The position numbers and the translations under genes are program-made. Source: a virus. From it: DNA of 28,003 nt. The notes under the pieces were generated by a model. That model worked only from the letters and a program-made list of their open reading frames with translations, was not told the DNA's origin and made no database searches. This document shows positions 2,684-24,913 of this stretch, one piece after another. Position 1 is the first letter of the stretch. The number at the start of each line of letters is the position of its first letter. The stretch is taken from positions 1 through 28,003 of the IMG/VR virus record IMGVR_UViG_3300030090_004058. The stretch is one strand, 5' to 3'.

Positions 2684-2988
2684 TGGAAAATGACCCTCCA
2701 CTGATTGAAGCGATTGTGGGCTTGATAGCAGGTCTAGGAGCTTACTTATCTTGGAAGGCAAAGAGTGAAGCCTCAAAGGCTAACAAAGAAGCCTCACAGG
2801 CAAATAGAGCCGTTAACGGTAATCCTGATGGCAGTCCACGGTTGTATGAGATGGTTGGTACGATTAAGGAAAGACAAAGAGGCATAGATGAAAAGATTGA
2901 AGATTTAAAAGACACTCAGAAAGATCAAGCTCACACCCTACAAAATCATAGCAAAAAGCTAGAAATATTATGTAAGGAGGAGGAGTAG
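2683..2988 (+). CDS. N-terminal TM plus coiled-coil protein (i-spanin- or holin-like)
   Basis: 101 aa: a single hydrophobic segment at about residues 7-24 (LIEAIVGLIAGLGAYLSW), then an Ala/Lys/Ser helix (KSEASKANKEASQANRAV), a Gly/Asn/Pro turn, and a heptad-like C-terminal helix (IDEKIEDLKDTQKDQAHTLQNHSKKLEIL). One N-terminal anchor with a long exported coiled coil is the layout of an inner-membrane spanin; it also resembles small phage proteins of the DUF2746 type. It overlaps the endolysin gene and its end carries the purine-rich ribosome site (AAGGAGGAGGAG) of the next gene. The exact role is inferred. Confidence 0.65.
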   Translation: MENDPPLIEAIVGLIAGLGAYLSWKAKSEASKANKEASQANRAVNGNPDGSPRLYEMVGTIKERQRGIDEKIEDLKDTQKDQAHTLQNHSKKLEILCKEEE

Positions 2989-2989
2989 A

Positions 2990-3754
2990 ATGGCTTGGCA
3001 AACATTTATCGCATCAGCCGACACTCACGGTGACTTGATCGATCGCAAAGGTAAGAACAGTTACCAGAGTTACATTCTTCAATGGATTAAAGACCATAAG
3101 CCCAAGCTCCGGTTAATGCTGGGTGATTTTATAGACGCTAAAGCCATTCGTCGAGGAGCATCCATGGAAGAGCGCAGCAGTTCCATGAGAGAGGACTGTC
3201 GGGCAGCCGTAGGATTCCTAAGAGCATTCAGACCCCATAAGCTCACTCTAGGTAATCACGATCAAAGATTATGGATGTTGGCACAATCTGAAAAAGATGG
3301 ATTGGAAGTTGATTACGCAAGACAACTTGCCAAGCAATTTGAAAACGAGTTTGAGGCGATGGGAACTGAATGGGTTGAGTATGATGTAAAGAAAGGTTGG
3401 ATAGAGATAGGTCCAAGGGGAGCCAAGTCAGGACCAAAGCTAATGAGTCACGGATACTTTTCTAATATGTATCCGGCAAAAAGCATGACGCAGGCAGCAG
3501 GCACTTCAACGATAAGTGGTCACACCCATGCGTTCGACTTTTGGAGGCAAAACAATTTAGCAGGAGATGAGAGTTATGTTTCAGGGTGCGGATGCCAGAT
3601 TGCACAAGACTATAACAGAACTCACGCAAGAAGACTGAAGCATGAGCATTCTTTTTTAACAGGATCAATTAATGATCGCACAGGGGCTTGGATAATTTAC
3701 CGAGTCAAAAAAGACAACCAAACAAACACATGGCTAGATCCCAAAAGACTATAA
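2990..3754 (+). CDS. Calcineurin-like metallophosphoesterase
   Basis: 254 aa with the full set of two-metal phosphoesterase motifs in order: DTH (11-13), GDFID (45-49), GNHD (88-91), SHG (153-155) and GHTH (177-180). The family hydrolyses phosphomono- or phosphodiesters, and phage members can act on nucleotides, RNA or DNA ends. The substrate cannot be read from sequence. Start ATG 2990 sits behind a very strong ribosome site embedded in the end of the previous gene. Its place between a lysis block and a winged-helix gene gives no clear pathway hint. Confidence 0.9.
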   Translation: MAWQTFIASADTHGDLIDRKGKNSYQSYILQWIKDHKPKLRLMLGDFIDAKAIRRGASMEERSSSMREDCRAAVGFLRAFRPHKLTLGNHDQRLWMLAQSEKDGLEVDYARQLAKQFENEFEAMGTEWVEYDVKKGWIEIGPRGAKSGPKLMSHGYFSNMYPAKSMTQAAGTSTISGHTHAFDFWRQNNLAGDESYVSGCGCQIAQDYNRTHARRLKHEHSFLTGSINDRTGAWIIYRVKKDNQTNTWLDPKRL

Positions 3755-4287: not shown

Positions 4288-4473
4288 ATGAGCAATAAAA
4301 CACTAGCAACAACTAATGCGTTAATCATCATGTTTCCAATGTTCTTGGGAATATGTGAGGAGTTAACAGGTAAACCAATAGCTAACCCATTACTCGTGGG
4401 TGTCGCAGGGCTGTTTATGATCATCTTTGGATTTTGGACTTGCCTACGCTTATACAAGCAGCCTGACCAGTAA
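4288..4473 (+). CDS. Two-TM small membrane protein
   Basis: 61 aa with two hydrophobic segments (ALIIMFPMFLGIC and PLLVGVAGLFMIIFGFWTCL) around a short polar loop, and a positively charged end (RLYKQPDQ). The hairpin topology is that of class II holins, which makes it a second holin/antiholin candidate besides the gene at 1609, but small two-TM proteins are common and the function is not shown. It starts 2 bases after the peptidase gene and its stop overlaps the next ATG (TAATG). Confidence 0.6.
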   Translation: MSNKTLATTNALIIMFPMFLGICEELTGKPIANPLLVGVAGLFMIIFGFWTCLRLYKQPDQ

Positions 4474-4960: not shown

Positions 4961-5515
4961 CTATGCTACGAGTTTGAATTCTTCACCGTGCATTGGCAGA
5001 TCCATTTGCCTGCGCCTTGTGATCTTCTTAAGCTGATTCAGCTTATCCTGTTCAGCAATCTTAGCGTCGATGATTGGATTGACTAAGTCTTGCCTGAGCC
5101 AGCGGTAGATTCTTTGGAAGCCGTCACCATGAGATTTTTTATAGATGCCTTTTGAGCGCATAGCGCCTCTTTGAACATGGTGTGCGACTTCATGTGCAAC
5201 CGATATGAGAAGTCGATCATCTTTATCAGTTACCACCCTGTCGCCATAAACTTTATTCTTAGCAAACGCAGCATACTCTTCTTCAACACCAGCTCCCTTT
5301 CTGTGTTGCCAATAATTAAGATTAATTTGGATCACATGGTATCCCGCATAGGTTGCGCCTGTGACATCTTTATTTACGACCCTTGTTACCTTCACTGCCT
5401 TCTCGACATGAGAGCGAGTGATGTTAAGAGGGTATTCTTTTTTCTTCAAAAGGTTCATGCACTGACGAACCCATTTTTTAATTTTCTTTATTTCTTCTTG
5501 AGTTGGTTTATCCAT
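4961..5515 (-). CDS. SprT-like zinc metallopeptidase
   Basis: 184 aa from ATG 5515. The zinc site is VAHEVAHH (His108, Glu109, His112) followed by SHGDGFQRIYRWL (128-140), the H-G-x-x-F/W pattern of SprT/Spartan-type peptidases, which in cells act on DNA-protein crosslinks. An ATG at 5539 extends the frame by 8 codons but lies upstream of the -10 of the promoter-like element at 5528-5556, so 5515 is chosen. The N-terminal third is Lys-rich and helical. It is followed by the 23-aa acidic gene and the terminator. The physiological substrate is unknown. Confidence 0.8.
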   Translation of the reverse strand: MDKPTQEEIKKIKKWVRQCMNLLKKKEYPLNITRSHVEKAVKVTRVVNKDVTGATYAGYHVIQINLNYWQHRKGAGVEEEYAAFAKNKVYGDRVVTDKDDRLLISVAHEVAHHVQRGAMRSKGIYKKSHGDGFQRIYRWLRQDLVNPIIDAKIAEQDKLNQLKKITRRRQMDLPMHGEEFKLVA

Positions 5516-5527
5516 TTGAGTAATTCG

Positions 5528-5556
5528 ATTGTGACACATGTTAAAACATGAGTCAA
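5528..5556 (-). promoter_or_regulatory. Promoter with palindromic operator-like spacer
   Basis: On the minus strand TTGACT (5556-5551) is followed after 17 bases by CACAAT (5533-5528). The spacer and flank form an imperfect palindrome, TGACTCATGT-N4-ACATGTGTCA (9 of 10 positions pair). The element recurs upstream of 21438 and 23366 and in weaker form before the integrase. The predicted leader to ATG 5515 is very short. Confidence 0.6.
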
Positions 5557-21420: not shown

Positions 21421-21437
21421 TAACTCAAATAACTAAC
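21421..21437 (+). promoter_or_regulatory. Shared leader, copy 1 (no Shine-Dalgarno)
   Basis: TAACTCAAATAACTAAC directly before ATG 21438. An identical copy precedes ATG 21732, and copies with one change precede ATG 23366 and 23698. It contains no purine-rich ribosome site, so it may be an alternative initiation signal or part of a regulatory site. Confidence 0.7.
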
Positions 21438-21653
21438 ATGACACTATATACATTATCTTACACACTCCACGGAAACGAAGACGAGCTTTACTACTTGCCT
21501 ACAAAAAAAGCAGCGTTGGAATACTTAAAAGAAGAAAAAGAGCGCCACGGCAAAAGCAACATCACTGAAACAAATATCAGCTCTTTTGATTTTAAACTTA
21601 CAAAAAAAGACATTGCCAGTCTTTTGAACAGCGAAGTAGGCACAGGTTTTTAA
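21438..21653 (+). CDS. Small early gene, 71 aa, unknown
   Basis: Starts at ATG 21438 after the shared leader; an upstream TTG (21384) is the promoter -35 and is rejected. The protein begins MTLYTLSYTLHGNEDELYYL, with alternating beta pattern, then a Lys-rich helix (KKAALEYLKEEKERHGK) and ends VGTGF. Probably one compact alpha/beta domain. First member of the small-gene block; no family recognised. Confidence 0.75.
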   Translation: MTLYTLSYTLHGNEDELYYLPTKKAALEYLKEEKERHGKSNITETNISSFDFKLTKKDIASLLNSEVGTGF

Positions 21654-21659
21654 TTCGAA

Positions 21660-21676
21660 ACTCCCTTAAGGGGAGT
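21660..21676 (+). other. Hairpin between small early genes
   Basis: ACTCCC-TTAAG-GGGAGT gives a 6-bp perfect stem with a 5-base loop, 7 bases after the stop of the 21438 gene. No U-run follows, so termination would be weak; an mRNA-end or processing role is as likely. Confidence 0.45.
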
Positions 21677-21714
21677 CATCAGCCTTTAGCAAGTTGATCT
21701 GACGAGATAGCTAA

Positions 21715-21731
21715 TAACTCAAATAACTAAC
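21715..21731 (+). promoter_or_regulatory. Shared leader, copy 2
   Basis: TAACTCAAATAACTAAC, identical to copy 1, immediately before ATG 21732. There is no shared promoter element just upstream here; a hairpin lies instead. Confidence 0.7.
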
Positions 21732-21992
21732 ATGAAATTAAATTACTTACCTACAATAACAATAAGTTATACTTACGGTGATGGTTACTCAGTTACCTAC
21801 GATTCTACCTTGGAGGAGCTAAGAGCGAGAGTACAAACCATCTACACACTCGATGCCAACGCAGAAGAAGATTACTCCCCTGCCGATGCTGTTGCTGTAA
21901 AGGAAAGATTGGCTGCGGAACTAAAGGCAATAAGAGAAACAATCAGCAGAATGAACAAGGTTGCAGATTCAATGTTAAGGAGGGAGGCGTAA
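21732..21992 (+). CDS. Small early gene, 86 aa, unknown
   Basis: An N-terminal beta part (LNYLPTITISYTYGDGYSVTY) followed by helices (LEELRARVQTIY, VAVKERLAAELKAIRETISR). Its last codons encode the purine-rich ribosome site of the next gene, giving the C-terminus RREA. The start is set by the shared leader. No family recognised. Confidence 0.75.
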   Translation: MKLNYLPTITISYTYGDGYSVTYDSTLEELRARVQTIYTLDANAEEDYSPADAVAVKERLAAELKAIRETISRMNKVADSMLRREA

Positions 21993-21993
21993 G

Positions 21994-22419
21994 ATGGTAA
22001 CTTTAAAAGGACTTAACAAAGCATTCGCCAGCTTAGGCATAGAACTTGTATGGGGTCACTCCTACGGAAGCGGAAGATACTTTTACTTTCTCATCTCAGA
22101 CATCGAACAGTGTCCTTTGCAATTCTGCAAGGGCGAGGATTTTGACAACGGGCATCAACTCGAAGAGTCATGGGGCTACGGATACCCATTAAATCACATC
22201 ACTCCTACAGGGTGGATGGAAGAGGCTGTAAGCCAATTGTGCAGTGTTGCAGAGCATTGGGATAGAGGTAATCACAAGTTCACCAACTGGGAAAAGACAG
22301 CTATGAGAATGGTGCTACATAACAAGTTGTCTAAGAACTACAAGGTTGAAGAGACATGGAAGCACCCAGAGGCGGGATCAGTTAACTGGAACCATCACGT
22401 TGTAAAGGAGGAGGCATAA
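21994..22419 (+). CDS. Small early gene, 141 aa, unknown
   Basis: Gly/Tyr/Trp-rich N-terminal half (GIELVWGHSYGSGRYFYFLI, EESWGYGYPLNHITPTGWM), then helices and a C-terminus of KEEA caused by the embedded ribosome site of the next gene. The start follows GGAGGGAGGCGTAA. The last 25 residues (EETWKHPE...NWNHHVV) loosely resemble the end of the following protein, hinting at common origin. Function unknown. Confidence 0.75.
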   Translation: MVTLKGLNKAFASLGIELVWGHSYGSGRYFYFLISDIEQCPLQFCKGEDFDNGHQLEESWGYGYPLNHITPTGWMEEAVSQLCSVAEHWDRGNHKFTNWEKTAMRMVLHNKLSKNYKVEETWKHPEAGSVNWNHHVVKEEA

Positions 22420-22420
22420 G

Positions 22421-22837
22421 ATGAAGATTGACCAACTAGGATTCACTAGAGATGAGAAAGGGTGCTATGTGTTTCACGACATTGGAGTGTTTCACTCTCC
22501 GATTAACACGACTATCGAATTGGATGATAGAAAGCTCTGGGATAACAAAACTCTCTTTACAGAATTGCCGACAAGTAAGGAAATTATGGCACGGCTCAAG
22601 AAGATTAACCCTACAAACCCTACGAAATTTTGTAGGCGTGATTTATGCTACCTTACAAGCAGGAAGGTTCTTAACACCACTAAAGGGACTATTGACTTAG
22701 GAACTTACCCTCTTCAATTTGTTGACTGGACATGGGATGAGGATGTTAAGCCGTATCTTCAGGAAGGCAGTCAATTCGAAGAGAAATGGCTGAGCTGGAA
22801 TAATCACGCTAAATGGACAGTTAGGGAGGGCGCATAA
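22421..22837 (+). CDS. Small early gene, 138 aa, unknown
   Basis: Mixed alpha/beta protein (YVFHDIGVFHSPINTTIELD, KEIMARLKKINPTNPTKFC) with an aromatic C-terminal part (FVDWTWDEDVKPYL, EEKWLSWNNHAKW). It starts at a purine-rich junction (AAAGGAGGAGGCATAAG) and ends in REGA, again encoding the ribosome site for the next gene. No family recognised. Confidence 0.75.
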   Translation: MKIDQLGFTRDEKGCYVFHDIGVFHSPINTTIELDDRKLWDNKTLFTELPTSKEIMARLKKINPTNPTKFCRRDLCYLTSRKVLNTTKGTIDLGTYPLQFVDWTWDEDVKPYLQEGSQFEEKWLSWNNHAKWTVREGA

Positions 22838-22838
22838 G

Positions 22839-23276
22839 ATGGATACACCAGAAGAGTTTCTAGAAGTAGTCAAAAAAAGTTATCCAAAAGCCGAGAGAAT
22901 CTATCTATCAGCTTTTAGGTGGGGTACTCCAACCGACGAATATAACCCTACTGCTGGCAAAGATATAATTACCAAAAGTACCCTGATGGATGTAGATGGT
23001 AATATAAAAAAGTTTACATGGCTAAACACTTGTTTCACATGGTTCCCTTATGAAAAAAGCACGGAGCAAACCCTACAAGAAATGTTTGGAGAGGACATGG
23101 AAATTTCTATGCCTTTACTGTCCTACCTATACAAGCATGGTGTAACCAGAATCCGTATTCTGGTAGAGGGTGATGGTCAAGAGTTGGCAAGAATGGCAAG
23201 CTACGGTCTTAGTGAGTTTGGCTTCTATTTCAAAGGCTGTACTCCACAACAACGTAGCGGGCTGATGGCTCTTTAA
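22839..23276 (+). CDS. Small early gene, 145 aa, unknown
   Basis: Starts at the third purine-rich junction. Predicted alpha/beta: FLEVVKKSYPKAERIYLSAF, then strands around FTWLNTCFTWFPY, and a C-terminal part with RIRILVEGDGQELARMASYG. Last gene of the 21732-23276 unit. No motif that allows a function. Confidence 0.75.
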   Translation: MDTPEEFLEVVKKSYPKAERIYLSAFRWGTPTDEYNPTAGKDIITKSTLMDVDGNIKKFTWLNTCFTWFPYEKSTEQTLQEMFGEDMEISMPLLSYLYKHGVTRIRILVEGDGQELARMASYGLSEFGFYFKGCTPQQRSGLMAL

Positions 23277-23305
23277 AAAAACTTAGTGAGTCTTTAATTA
23301 TATAG

Positions 23306-23334
23306 TTGACTCATGTGTCATCATGTTTCATATT
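23306..23334 (+). promoter_or_regulatory. Promoter with shared operator-like element
   Basis: TTGACT (23306-23311), 17 bases, CATATT (23329-23334). The interval TGACTCATGT-N4-TCATGTTTCA is a third copy of the palindromic element. It should drive the units starting at 23366 and 23698. Confidence 0.6.
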
Positions 23335-23348
23335 TATACCAACTTAAA

Positions 23349-23365
23349 TAACTCAAAAAACTAAC
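23349..23365 (+). promoter_or_regulatory. Shared leader, copy 3
   Basis: TAACTCAAAAAACTAAC before ATG 23366, one base different from copies 1 and 2 and identical to copy 4. Confidence 0.7.
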
Positions 23366-23674
23366 ATGGCTAAAACAACTTCTTTTCCTTCCTTATTTCC
23401 AACCTTCATGTTCGGCTTCGGTCAGAAGCTACAGCTCACTTATCAGTACGATGTTGAGATGGATGAATGGATTGGTTTTCCTATCTTCGATTCACTTGAT
23501 GATGACGAGGCGTGGATGGACGACCCTCGATGGGACATTCCTAGGAAAGAGCTTCGTCTCATTACTGATTCCTACAATGCGGGAGGACCAGCATTAGCTG
23601 ACCTTAAAACCAAGCTCCAGCACTTCCATTCTTTCGGATGGGGACCAGAAGGCAAAGATAAGTGGAGCGCATAA
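23366..23674 (+). CDS. Small early gene, 102 aa, unknown
   Basis: Acidic and aromatic: FPSLFPTFMFGFGQKLQLTY, then EMDEWIGFPIFDSLDDDEAW and a C-terminus HSFGWGPEGKDKWSA. Asp/Glu-rich centre, no signal or membrane span. Codon use and amino-acid composition match neighbours. Preceded by the shared promoter and leader; no family recognised. Confidence 0.75.
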   Translation: MAKTTSFPSLFPTFMFGFGQKLQLTYQYDVEMDEWIGFPIFDSLDDDEAWMDDPRWDIPRKELRLITDSYNAGGPALADLKTKLQHFHSFGWGPEGKDKWSA

Positions 23675-23680
23675 TTTAAC

Positions 23681-23697
23681 TAACTCAAAAAACTAAC
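23681..23697 (+). promoter_or_regulatory. Shared leader, copy 4
   Basis: TAACTCAAAAAACTAAC before ATG 23698, identical to copy 3. Confidence 0.7.
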
Positions 23698-24141
23698 ATG
23701 AAAAAACTTAACGATATTTACAACGATTTAGAATTAACTAAAATAGTTTACCTTGAAGATGCATTCGATTATCTCCATCCGTCTGAGACTCAGATCATTG
23801 AATCAGCTTTAAGAATGACGCATAAGCTACCGGCAATCTTTGAGCCTAACAGCTCCAGCACCTTGAACGCTATTAAGGTTGAACAGATTCTTGCGTCAGC
23901 TTCACACATGATTAATATCATTTTTGATTCTAAGCCAAAGCGTATAGCCCACGAACTAAAAACTGTATTTGATATATTTTTTAATATTAATGATCTTGGA
24001 AGCTGGGATAGATTTGAATTAGTTCTGGACGGTAAGGACTGGTGGTCAGAGCGTATGCCGTCCAAGTACACGGATTGGCATAACCTTGAGTACAACCAAG
24101 GCATGGCAGAGCATTCATACAAAGCAAGGAGGGAGGCGTAA
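23698..24141 (+). CDS. Small early gene, 147 aa, unknown
   Basis: Mostly helical (KKLNDIYNDLELTKIVYLED, AIKVEQILASASHMINIIFD, AHELKTVFDIFFNI) with a polar C-terminal part (DWWSERMPSKYTDWHNLEY) and end RREA from the embedded ribosome site of the next gene. Start set by the shared leader. No recognised family. Confidence 0.75.
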   Translation: MKKLNDIYNDLELTKIVYLEDAFDYLHPSETQIIESALRMTHKLPAIFEPNSSSTLNAIKVEQILASASHMINIIFDSKPKRIAHELKTVFDIFFNINDLGSWDRFELVLDGKDWWSERMPSKYTDWHNLEYNQGMAEHSYKARREA

Positions 24142-24142
24142 C

Positions 24143-24913
24143 ATGGATACAGCAGAAAAAATTCACCCTTTCGAGAAGTCAGGCATGGGCATAGGTCCAT
24201 TCGAGTTTGTAGGCAGCATACTTTTACCGTCACCGGCTTTAGCGGAACACAACCCTAGCGCATACAATGCAGCTCTTGACATGGCTCACAAGGAGGCTTC
24301 CAACTATGGAGTTGTACTTGGTAGCTGCTACCACTGCGGAATGGGACTAATGCACCACTGCATTATCGAGGATTCAAAAGGTAAGACCTTTATAGTCGGC
24401 AACGTATGCGTTCAAAAGACGGCAGACCAGTACCTTGGTGAAAAGACTAAGATCGCAGCCAGAAAAATGGCAGCAACAGTCAGAGAGCAGAATAAGCAGA
24501 TCAAGCACGAGATATGGCTCGCCTCTCCTTCTGAGGAAAACCCAGAACTTTCTAATGAGCAGTTAGCTGAGGTCAAACGTCAGGAACGTGAAGACCGTTA
24601 CCAGAAAGAAGCACAGCTCGCTCGTGAGAGATTTGTAATTACTTACCTCAAAGCCTGTGAAACTTGGGGATTCTTTTTTGATAAAGTGTGGGGAACCACA
24701 AACCTTGAAGAGTTAGAAAAGTTTTTAGATGACGCTTATCAGGGTTTTCTTGTCAGTGTCACTCAACAGATGATGAGAGGTGACAGTCTTTCGTGGAGGC
24801 AGTGGGATATATGTTCTGACATTTACGCTAAAACAGCAGGTCGCAGTAACAGCAAGGCTTACAGCGTAGCCTACGATGATTTTTCACATAGAGTTTCACA
24901 TTTGCGTGACTAG
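24143..24913 (+). CDS. Zinc-ribbon-like protein with coiled region
   Basis: 256 aa from ATG 24143, which follows GGAGGGAGGCGTAA at good distance; a frame extension to 24086 would lie inside the previous gene. Residues 55-91 (GSCYHCGMGL ... HHC ... GKTFIVGNVCV) carry Cys62, Cys65, Cys73 and Cys89, a treble-clef or zinc-ribbon-like pattern seen in phage proteins that read C..CG ... G..F.VG..C. A charged helix follows (about 130-170), then a globular C-terminus. Possibly binds nucleic acid; function unknown. Confidence 0.7.
   Translation: MDTAEKIHPFEKSGMGIGPFEFVGSILLPSPALAEHNPSAYNAALDMAHKEASNYGVVLGSCYHCGMGLMHHCIIEDSKGKTFIVGNVCVQKTADQYLGEKTKIAARKMAATVREQNKQIKHEIWLASPSEENPELSNEQLAEVKRQEREDRYQKEAQLARERFVITYLKACETWGFFFDKVWGTTNLEELEKFLDDAYQGFLVSVTQQMMRGDSLSWRQWDICSDIYAKTAGRSNSKAYSVAYDDFSHRVSHLRD

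Follow-up and report, generated by a model that had tools for sequence, protein, structure and literature searches.

Repeated sequences standing just before the start codons of phage genes have been described as start-associated sequences (SAS) in the Cluster K mycobacteriophages (PMC3203893) and in Cluster EF Microbacterium phages (PMC7302621). The SAS (GGGATAGGAGCCC) contains a Shine-Dalgarno (SD) sequence, is usually 3-7 bp away from the start codon and is found in 11-19 copies, with the inverted repeats of the extended start-associated sequence (ESAS) beside it. Why some phages keep near-identical sequences before their starts has been an open question since the SAS was described in 2011. 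Here we analyze a 17-nt leader that is repeated directly before the ATG of four genes in a 28,003-nt stretch of viral DNA, which we call the window (positions 1 to 28,003 of the IMG/VR virus record IMGVR_UViG_3300030090_004058; full record 29,680 bp, designated G0). The leader contains no SD, which rules out a strong ribosome site as its explanation.

Initiation that does not depend on an SD, through a local lack of structure, has been shown experimentally elsewhere, in a study that reports no conserved motif for it (PMC3121790). An A at position -3 is a positive determinant of such initiation (PMC6847099), and in Caulobacter 75% of starts lack an SD and are used with equal efficiency (PMC4117421). 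An SD in the end of the upstream gene, together with adjacent stop and start codons, is the layout of termination-reinitiation coupling (PMC6728339, PMC10666635).

We propose that the leader has two roles. It would be an SD-independent start module, tied to a particular position in early operons under operator control, and it would serve as a seam at which the genes that head those operons are exchanged. We put the probability of this reading at roughly 0.6.

A leader repeated before unrelated genes

The original prediction placed exact 17-mers against the ATG codons at 21438, 21732, 23366 and 23698, and all four were found there, each abutting its ATG. Their general form is [AACTYAAAW]-AACTAAC followed by ATG. 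With up to three mismatches allowed, five leader matches were observed against 0.3 expected, and none of 100 shuffles reached five, which rules out a chance repeat. No fifth copy was found on scanning the full 29,680-bp record at up to two mismatches. The proteins behind the four leaders, which had been called unrelated from their translations, are mutually unrelated by blastp. Recent gene duplication, which the original prediction had allowed for, is therefore excluded as the source of the similarity.

The leader region is common to G0 and three IMG/VR relatives: G001 (G1; IMGVR_UViG_3300030106_005380, 53.9 kb, ~95% identical to G0), G002 (G2; IMGVR_UViG_3300030104_004717, 53.3 kb, ~75% identical to G0) and L030 (IMGVR_UViG_3300006751_001832), a 6.5-kb fragment in which the gene J protein is 64% identical. 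The exact leader precedes genes A, B, H and I in G0, and A, B, H and J in G1. Variants with one added A, or with A for T, precede A, C, H and K in G2, the extra A being present in three of the copies. The L030 leader, AACTTAAAATAACTAAC, precedes C and K, and both copies have a change of C to T and an extra A. Across the four phages seven unrelated genes (A, B, C, H, I, J and K) are found behind the leader; leader 2 precedes B in G0 and C in G2, and leader 4 precedes I in G0, J in G1 and K in G2. It had been envisaged that related phages might keep the genes and lose the leader. We find instead that all three keep the leader even when the gene behind it changes. Judged from these sequences, the leader appears to track the slot at the head of an operon and not a gene family, and it looks like a fixed 'start socket' that receives different gene cassettes.

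Within each genome the leader copies tend to resemble one another. This would fit either exchange among the copies or co-evolution with a binder, on numbers too small to decide between them. Compared with the L030 form, leader 3 carries one more unit on its upstream side (AACTTAAAT-AACTCAAAA-AACTAAC), as slippage or unequal recombination might produce. Exact matches to the leader in four other viral contigs (L006, L007, L009 and L010) lie in unrelated contexts, ahead of unrelated or very short frames, and are taken as chance matches to a 19-letter pattern in a huge collection.

Gene exchange at the leader

With P for promoter, L for leader and sd for SD junction, operon 1 reads P-L-A-spacer-L-B-sd-C-sd-D-sd-E in G0 and G1, P-L-A-spacer-L-C-sd-F-D'-sd-G-sd-E in G2, and P-L-C-sd-F-sd-E in L030. 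Operon 2 reads P-L-H-L-I-sd-J in G0, P-L-H-L-J in G1, P-L-H-L-K-sd-J in G2 and P-L-K-sd-J in L030. A single leader is present in L030 where the other three phages have leader-A-spacer-leader and leader-H-leader. Genes C and J each stand behind the leader in some phages and behind an SD junction in others, the sequence switching exactly at the ATG, and the alignment blocks of G0 with G1 and with G2 break or resume at leader plus ATG (23702/24139, 21734/21990). The identity between G0 and G2 steps between 72% and 97-100% along the region, which is therefore a mosaic: it is 72% in the exonuclease gene upstream, 97-100% in A and the spacer, 88% in C, 98% in E, 91% in H and 77% in J.

A recombination seam was among the original suggestions, and the relatives bear it out, with gene content changing exactly at the leader and ATG in all three and with A and H absent from L030. 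This comparison shows cassettes to have been exchanged at the leader, the gene being swapped exactly at its ATG, and we infer that homologous or microhomology recombination at the seam would be responsible. As to recombination at the repeat itself, the leader-flanked genes A and H are missing in L030, and no direct recombinants were seen. In G1, gene J starts ATGAAT and not ATGGAT, and the A after the ATG (+4) matches the missing gene I. It is as if gene I had been lost through a crossover in TAACATG(A); a single point mutation would also account for this.

The same observations bear on the possibility that the repeat is passive, its copies being traces of duplication of promoter-leader or cassette, and of recombination, where any A-rich open sequence would suffice and no sequence-specific role is required. 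The copies flanking one gene are identical in G0 and G1 (1 and 2 around A, 3 and 4 around H), leader 3 resembles an expansion of the L030 form by a 9-nt unit, and most genes start without an SD behind unrelated A-rich leaders, as a passive repeat would lead one to expect. Yet the copies stay alike across phages that are only ~70-75% identical, at every operon-head position and against the ATG of different genes, and we consider a passive origin unlikely.

Predicted initiation without a Shine-Dalgarno sequence

SD sequences were called in ATG-started frames at a duplex energy of -5 kcal/mol or below, and as strong at -8 kcal/mol or below; because frames are called from their first ATG, individual gene starts may be wrong. 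An SD is present at 7 of the 45 genes of the G0 record (~85% are without), compared with 21% of random internal ATGs. The counts in G1 (8 of 55) and G2 (12 of 54) are likewise not above random internal ATGs, and of the 21 G0 genes with a gap of more than 30 nt to the preceding gene none has an SD. The same pipeline gave an SD at 56-77% of genes in lambda, T4, T7 and TM4. SD-less starts are the rule in this phage. What is unusual is therefore not that an SD is absent, but that the leader is repeated and that SD junctions occur. The original prediction had strong purine-rich ribosome sites in use at genes elsewhere in the window; this was not upheld, strong sites being found only where stop and start are 1 nt apart.

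There are five strong SDs in G0, all at such 1-nt stop/start junctions (2990, 21994, 22421, 22839 and 24143), and the last four lie inside the leader-headed operons. At these internal junctions the upstream gene contains the SD in its final codons and stops one base before the ATG, with the approximate form RAGGAGGNNGCNTAAS then ATG. Leader starts and SD junctions both end in TAA[G/C] followed by ATG, so that one gene can stand behind either type of start. Of the ten TAA[G/C]ATG heptamers on the G0 plus strand, eight fall in this 2.7-kb region, each of them at a gene start. The strong SD outside the early operons (GTAAGGAGGAGGAGTAGA then ATG, window 2970-2990), also at a 1-nt junction, is conserved in both relatives.

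The leader itself has no purine tract; its SD duplex energy is ~+1.9 kcal/mol and its spacing to the ATG is 0. The minimum free energy of folding between -25 and +25 is 0 to -0.2 kcal/mol at each of the eight leader starts in G0 and G2, compared with a mean of ~-4.8 kcal/mol at other starts. The leader starts therefore have the features of SD-independent initiation, namely no SD and no predicted structure around the AUG. The alternative initiation signal envisaged by the original prediction stands in so far as this is an unstructured, SD-independent start. It fails as an exception, since SD-less starts are in the majority in these phages. A special folding design of the leader region was rejected, its openness being an effect of composition.

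Leader 1 keeps 16 of 17 positions between G1 and G2, which is among the highest of 37 orthologous start pairs and not unique, and other SD-less leaders, such as that of the capsid gene, fall to 11-12 of 17 in the same comparison. Such conservation would suit a translational operator, another of the original suggestions, at which an RNA-binding protein of phage or host, or a small RNA, recognizes the leader and switches the operon-head genes together in the manner of RegA but with one fixed site. Early genes have the four near-identical, single-stranded copies directly against their AUG, the two L030 copies are altered alike as if following a binder, and the sites bound by RegA of T4 are unstructured, rich in A/U and located at the AUG or immediately 5' of it (PMC3014915). 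However, genes C and J do without the leader in some relatives, and concerted change is also expected from recombination among the copies. No candidate binder was identified, and searches of Rfam and for tRNAs gave nothing relevant, the leader matching no known Rfam element. We judge an operator of this kind to be improbable.

Predicted promoters upstream of the leaders

A shared pattern, TTGACYCAT-N8-ATGTGTCAYWAT, contains a -35 and a -10 box together with a 24-bp dyad. It occurs at three sites in the window and in none of 100 shuffles, a comparison that is partly circular in that the pattern was derived from those sites, and the sites are conserved in the three relatives. The dyad is likely to be the operator of a phage regulator, either repressor or activator. 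The predicted -10 boxes end 9 nt before leader 1 and 15 nt before leader 3, and these leaders would therefore make up most of the inferred 5' untranslated region (UTR). Leaders 2 and 4 are internal to the operons. That the repeat acts as DNA or nascent RNA, as an initial transcribed sequence or antitermination signal and not in translation, would agree with the placing of leaders 1 and 3 but is very improbable, given that no promoter can be recognized beside leaders 2 and 4, that all copies are in fixed register with the ATG, and that at the third promoter to carry this operator the leader is short and only partly similar.

This third promoter precedes a gene on the minus strand (4961-5515) with an HEVAHH (HExxH) motif, which is possibly SprT-like. 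The ATG at 5515 is a likelier start than that of the longer open reading frame (ORF) at 5539, because 5539 falls inside the promoter.

Proposed mechanism

In the start-module reading, transcription from P1 and P3 would begin ~6-8 nt past the -10 box, under the control of the dyad operator spanning the -35/-10 region, and the leader would form most of a 20-25-nt 5' UTR. This A/C-rich leader would be unstructured with any gene behind it, and since it folds into no structure ribosomes could initiate at the adjacent AUG without an SD. The internal genes would be ATG-to-stop cassettes carrying the SD of the next gene in their own last codons, an arrangement suited to coupled re-initiation. Leaders 2 and 4 would be additional copies at the edges of head cassettes that had been inserted (A with the spacer, and H) and that could be removed by recombination between leader copies. 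In this reading we infer the transcription start sites, SD-independent initiation at the leaders and re-initiation at the SD junctions.

Several points weigh against this reading. The leader is carried by only the four phages G0, G1, G2 and L030. The promoters and transcription starts are predictions, and a generic scan for sigma-70 promoters gave no more than shuffled sequence did. The openness of the leader starts is not unusual relative to composition-matched shuffles (z ~+0.5). Generic SD-less initiation needs no fixed sequence, and near-identical copies therefore need either homogenization or a specific binder. Lastly, selection alone would keep only swaps at gene boundaries, and breakpoints at the ATG are therefore no proof of recombination promoted by the leader.

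A broader version of the start-module reading can be put forward only tentatively, and we find it doubtful. It is a two-part plug-in grammar, with a head socket (operator-promoter and SD-less leader), internal SD sockets and the shared TAA[G/C] ATG seam, in which any cassette could fit either socket by recombination and a dedicated factor might read the head leader.

If the start-module reading is true, the phage can exchange early genes, possibly for host interaction, and yet keep their expression signals. The natural swaps of leader and SD junction before genes C and J provide ready-made test pairs.

Features of the two operons and of the phage

The features are collected in Table 1. The hairpin of the 61-nt spacer is strong, and the spacer is 100% identical between G0 and G2, compared with 72-97% for the flanking genes; it is possible that it is a regulatory or processing RNA. 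At 23268-23276, at the stop codon of gene E and just upstream of P3, lies GCTCTTTAA, which is kept in G1 and which we take to resemble the boxA antitermination core.

Table 1. Coordinates of promoters, leaders, genes and junctions in the window
Feature	Position	Strand	Description
Third dyad promoter	5528..5556	-	shorter, partly similar leader ending TTACTCAA before ATG at 5515
Promoter P1	21384..21412	+	predicted; TTGACT-N17-CATTAA, 24-bp dyad TGACTCAT-N8-ATGTGTCA; upstream of leader 1
Leader 1	21421..21437	+	TAACTCAAATAACTAAC, exact; abuts ATG 21438 of gene A
Gene A	21438..21653	+	71 aa; 94% identical protein in G2; absent behind L030 leader
Spacer, gene A/leader 2	21654..21714	+	hairpin ACTCCCTTAAGGGGAGT; 61/61 nt identical in G2
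Leader 2	21715..21731	+	TAACTCAAATAACTAAC, exact; abuts ATG 21732 of gene B
Gene B	21732..21992	+	86 aa; absent from G2 and L030
SD junction before gene C	21977..21993	+	AAGGAGGGAGGCGTAAG; SD and gene B stop codon
Gene C	21994..22419	+	141 aa; SD-led in G0 and G1, leader-led in G2 and L030
SD junction before gene D	22404..22420	+	AAAGGAGGAGGCATAAG
Gene D	22421..22837	+	138 aa
SD junction before gene E	22822..22838	+	TAGGGAGGGCGCATAAG
Gene E	22839..23276	+	145 aa; last gene of operon 1
Promoter P3	23306..23334	+	predicted; TTGACT-N17-CATATT, related dyad operator; upstream of leader 3
Leader 3	23349..23365	+	TAACTCAAAAAACTAAC; abuts ATG 23366 of gene H; partial unit AACTTAAA upstream
Gene H	23366..23674	+	102 aa; absent from L030
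Leader 4	23681..23697	+	TAACTCAAAAAACTAAC; abuts ATG 23698 of gene I
Gene I	23698..24141	+	147 aa; missing in G1; unrelated gene K in its place in G2
SD junction before gene J	24126..24142	+	AAGGAGGGAGGCGTAAC
Gene J	24143..24913	+	256 aa, HPFEKSGxGxGPF N-terminus; SD-led in G0, G2 and L030, leader-led in G1

The G0 record encodes capsid, portal, terminase, integrase and a DnaB-like helicase. Searches of Pfam and PHROGs assigned no function to genes A-J. Among named phages, megablast and capsid searches gave no match, and the helicase matches were all below 60% identity, the best hits being ~30%. Searching bacterial genomes of ~85,000 species with the capsid and gene J found no relatives, neither host nor prophage. 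In both G1 and G2 a single ORF of ~5,250 codons takes up nearly 30% of the genome.

Comparison with known systems

In T4-type phages, promoter early stem-loops (PeSLs; Arbiol 2010 and Comeau 2014, cited in PMC4503421) are reported to shuffle modules as promoter-terminator cassettes between genes. As there, repeated expression signals border exchangeable early genes here; the repeated piece, in contrast, is a leader abutting the ATG, with a promoter before only two of the four copies. Many early genes of T4 likewise have an unstructured, A-rich site at the AUG, the RegA operator (PMC3014915), but RegA sites have no fixed sequence, and no RegA-like binder was identified here. SD-independent leaders (PMC3121790, PMC6847099; Caulobacter, PMC4117421) share with these phages a genome-wide SD-less rule, an open start region and an A at -3. 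No fixed leader occurs there, whereas here a single leader is repeated beside strong SDs at 1-nt junctions.

A test for repeated 12-mers recovered the SAS in TM4, and gave nothing in lambda, one pair in T7 and a few in T4. Two viral contigs with a gene J homologue have start-linked repeats of their own. In the distant phage contig L032 (IMGVR_UViG_3300030329_003374), AGAAAGGACAGAACA occurs in five exact copies between 6426 and 9940, always 2 nt before an ATG; this is a start-associated repeat that bears an SD and resembles the SAS. In L035, AACGAAAGCGAATC lies directly before two ATGs, at 4293 and 5555.

Like the SAS, the leader is a short, asymmetric repeat in one orientation, just upstream of the ATG of unrelated non-structural genes and confined to a phage group, and some gene families have the repeat in one phage and lack it in another. 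Unlike the SAS, it has no SD core (AGGAG or AAGGA) and abuts the ATG at a spacing of 0, it is present in four copies (two in the L030 fragment), and the gene swaps break exactly at the ATG. Compared with the ESAS, which is linked to about half of the SAS sites, the 24-bp dyad upstream of leaders 1 and 3 spans the predicted promoter, and it is absent at leaders 2 and 4. Because the SD and the spacing do not agree, we do not class the leader as a member of the SAS. The SAS is nonetheless the closest known feature, and the leader is a variant of a broader kind, the repeated start-linked sequences of phages.

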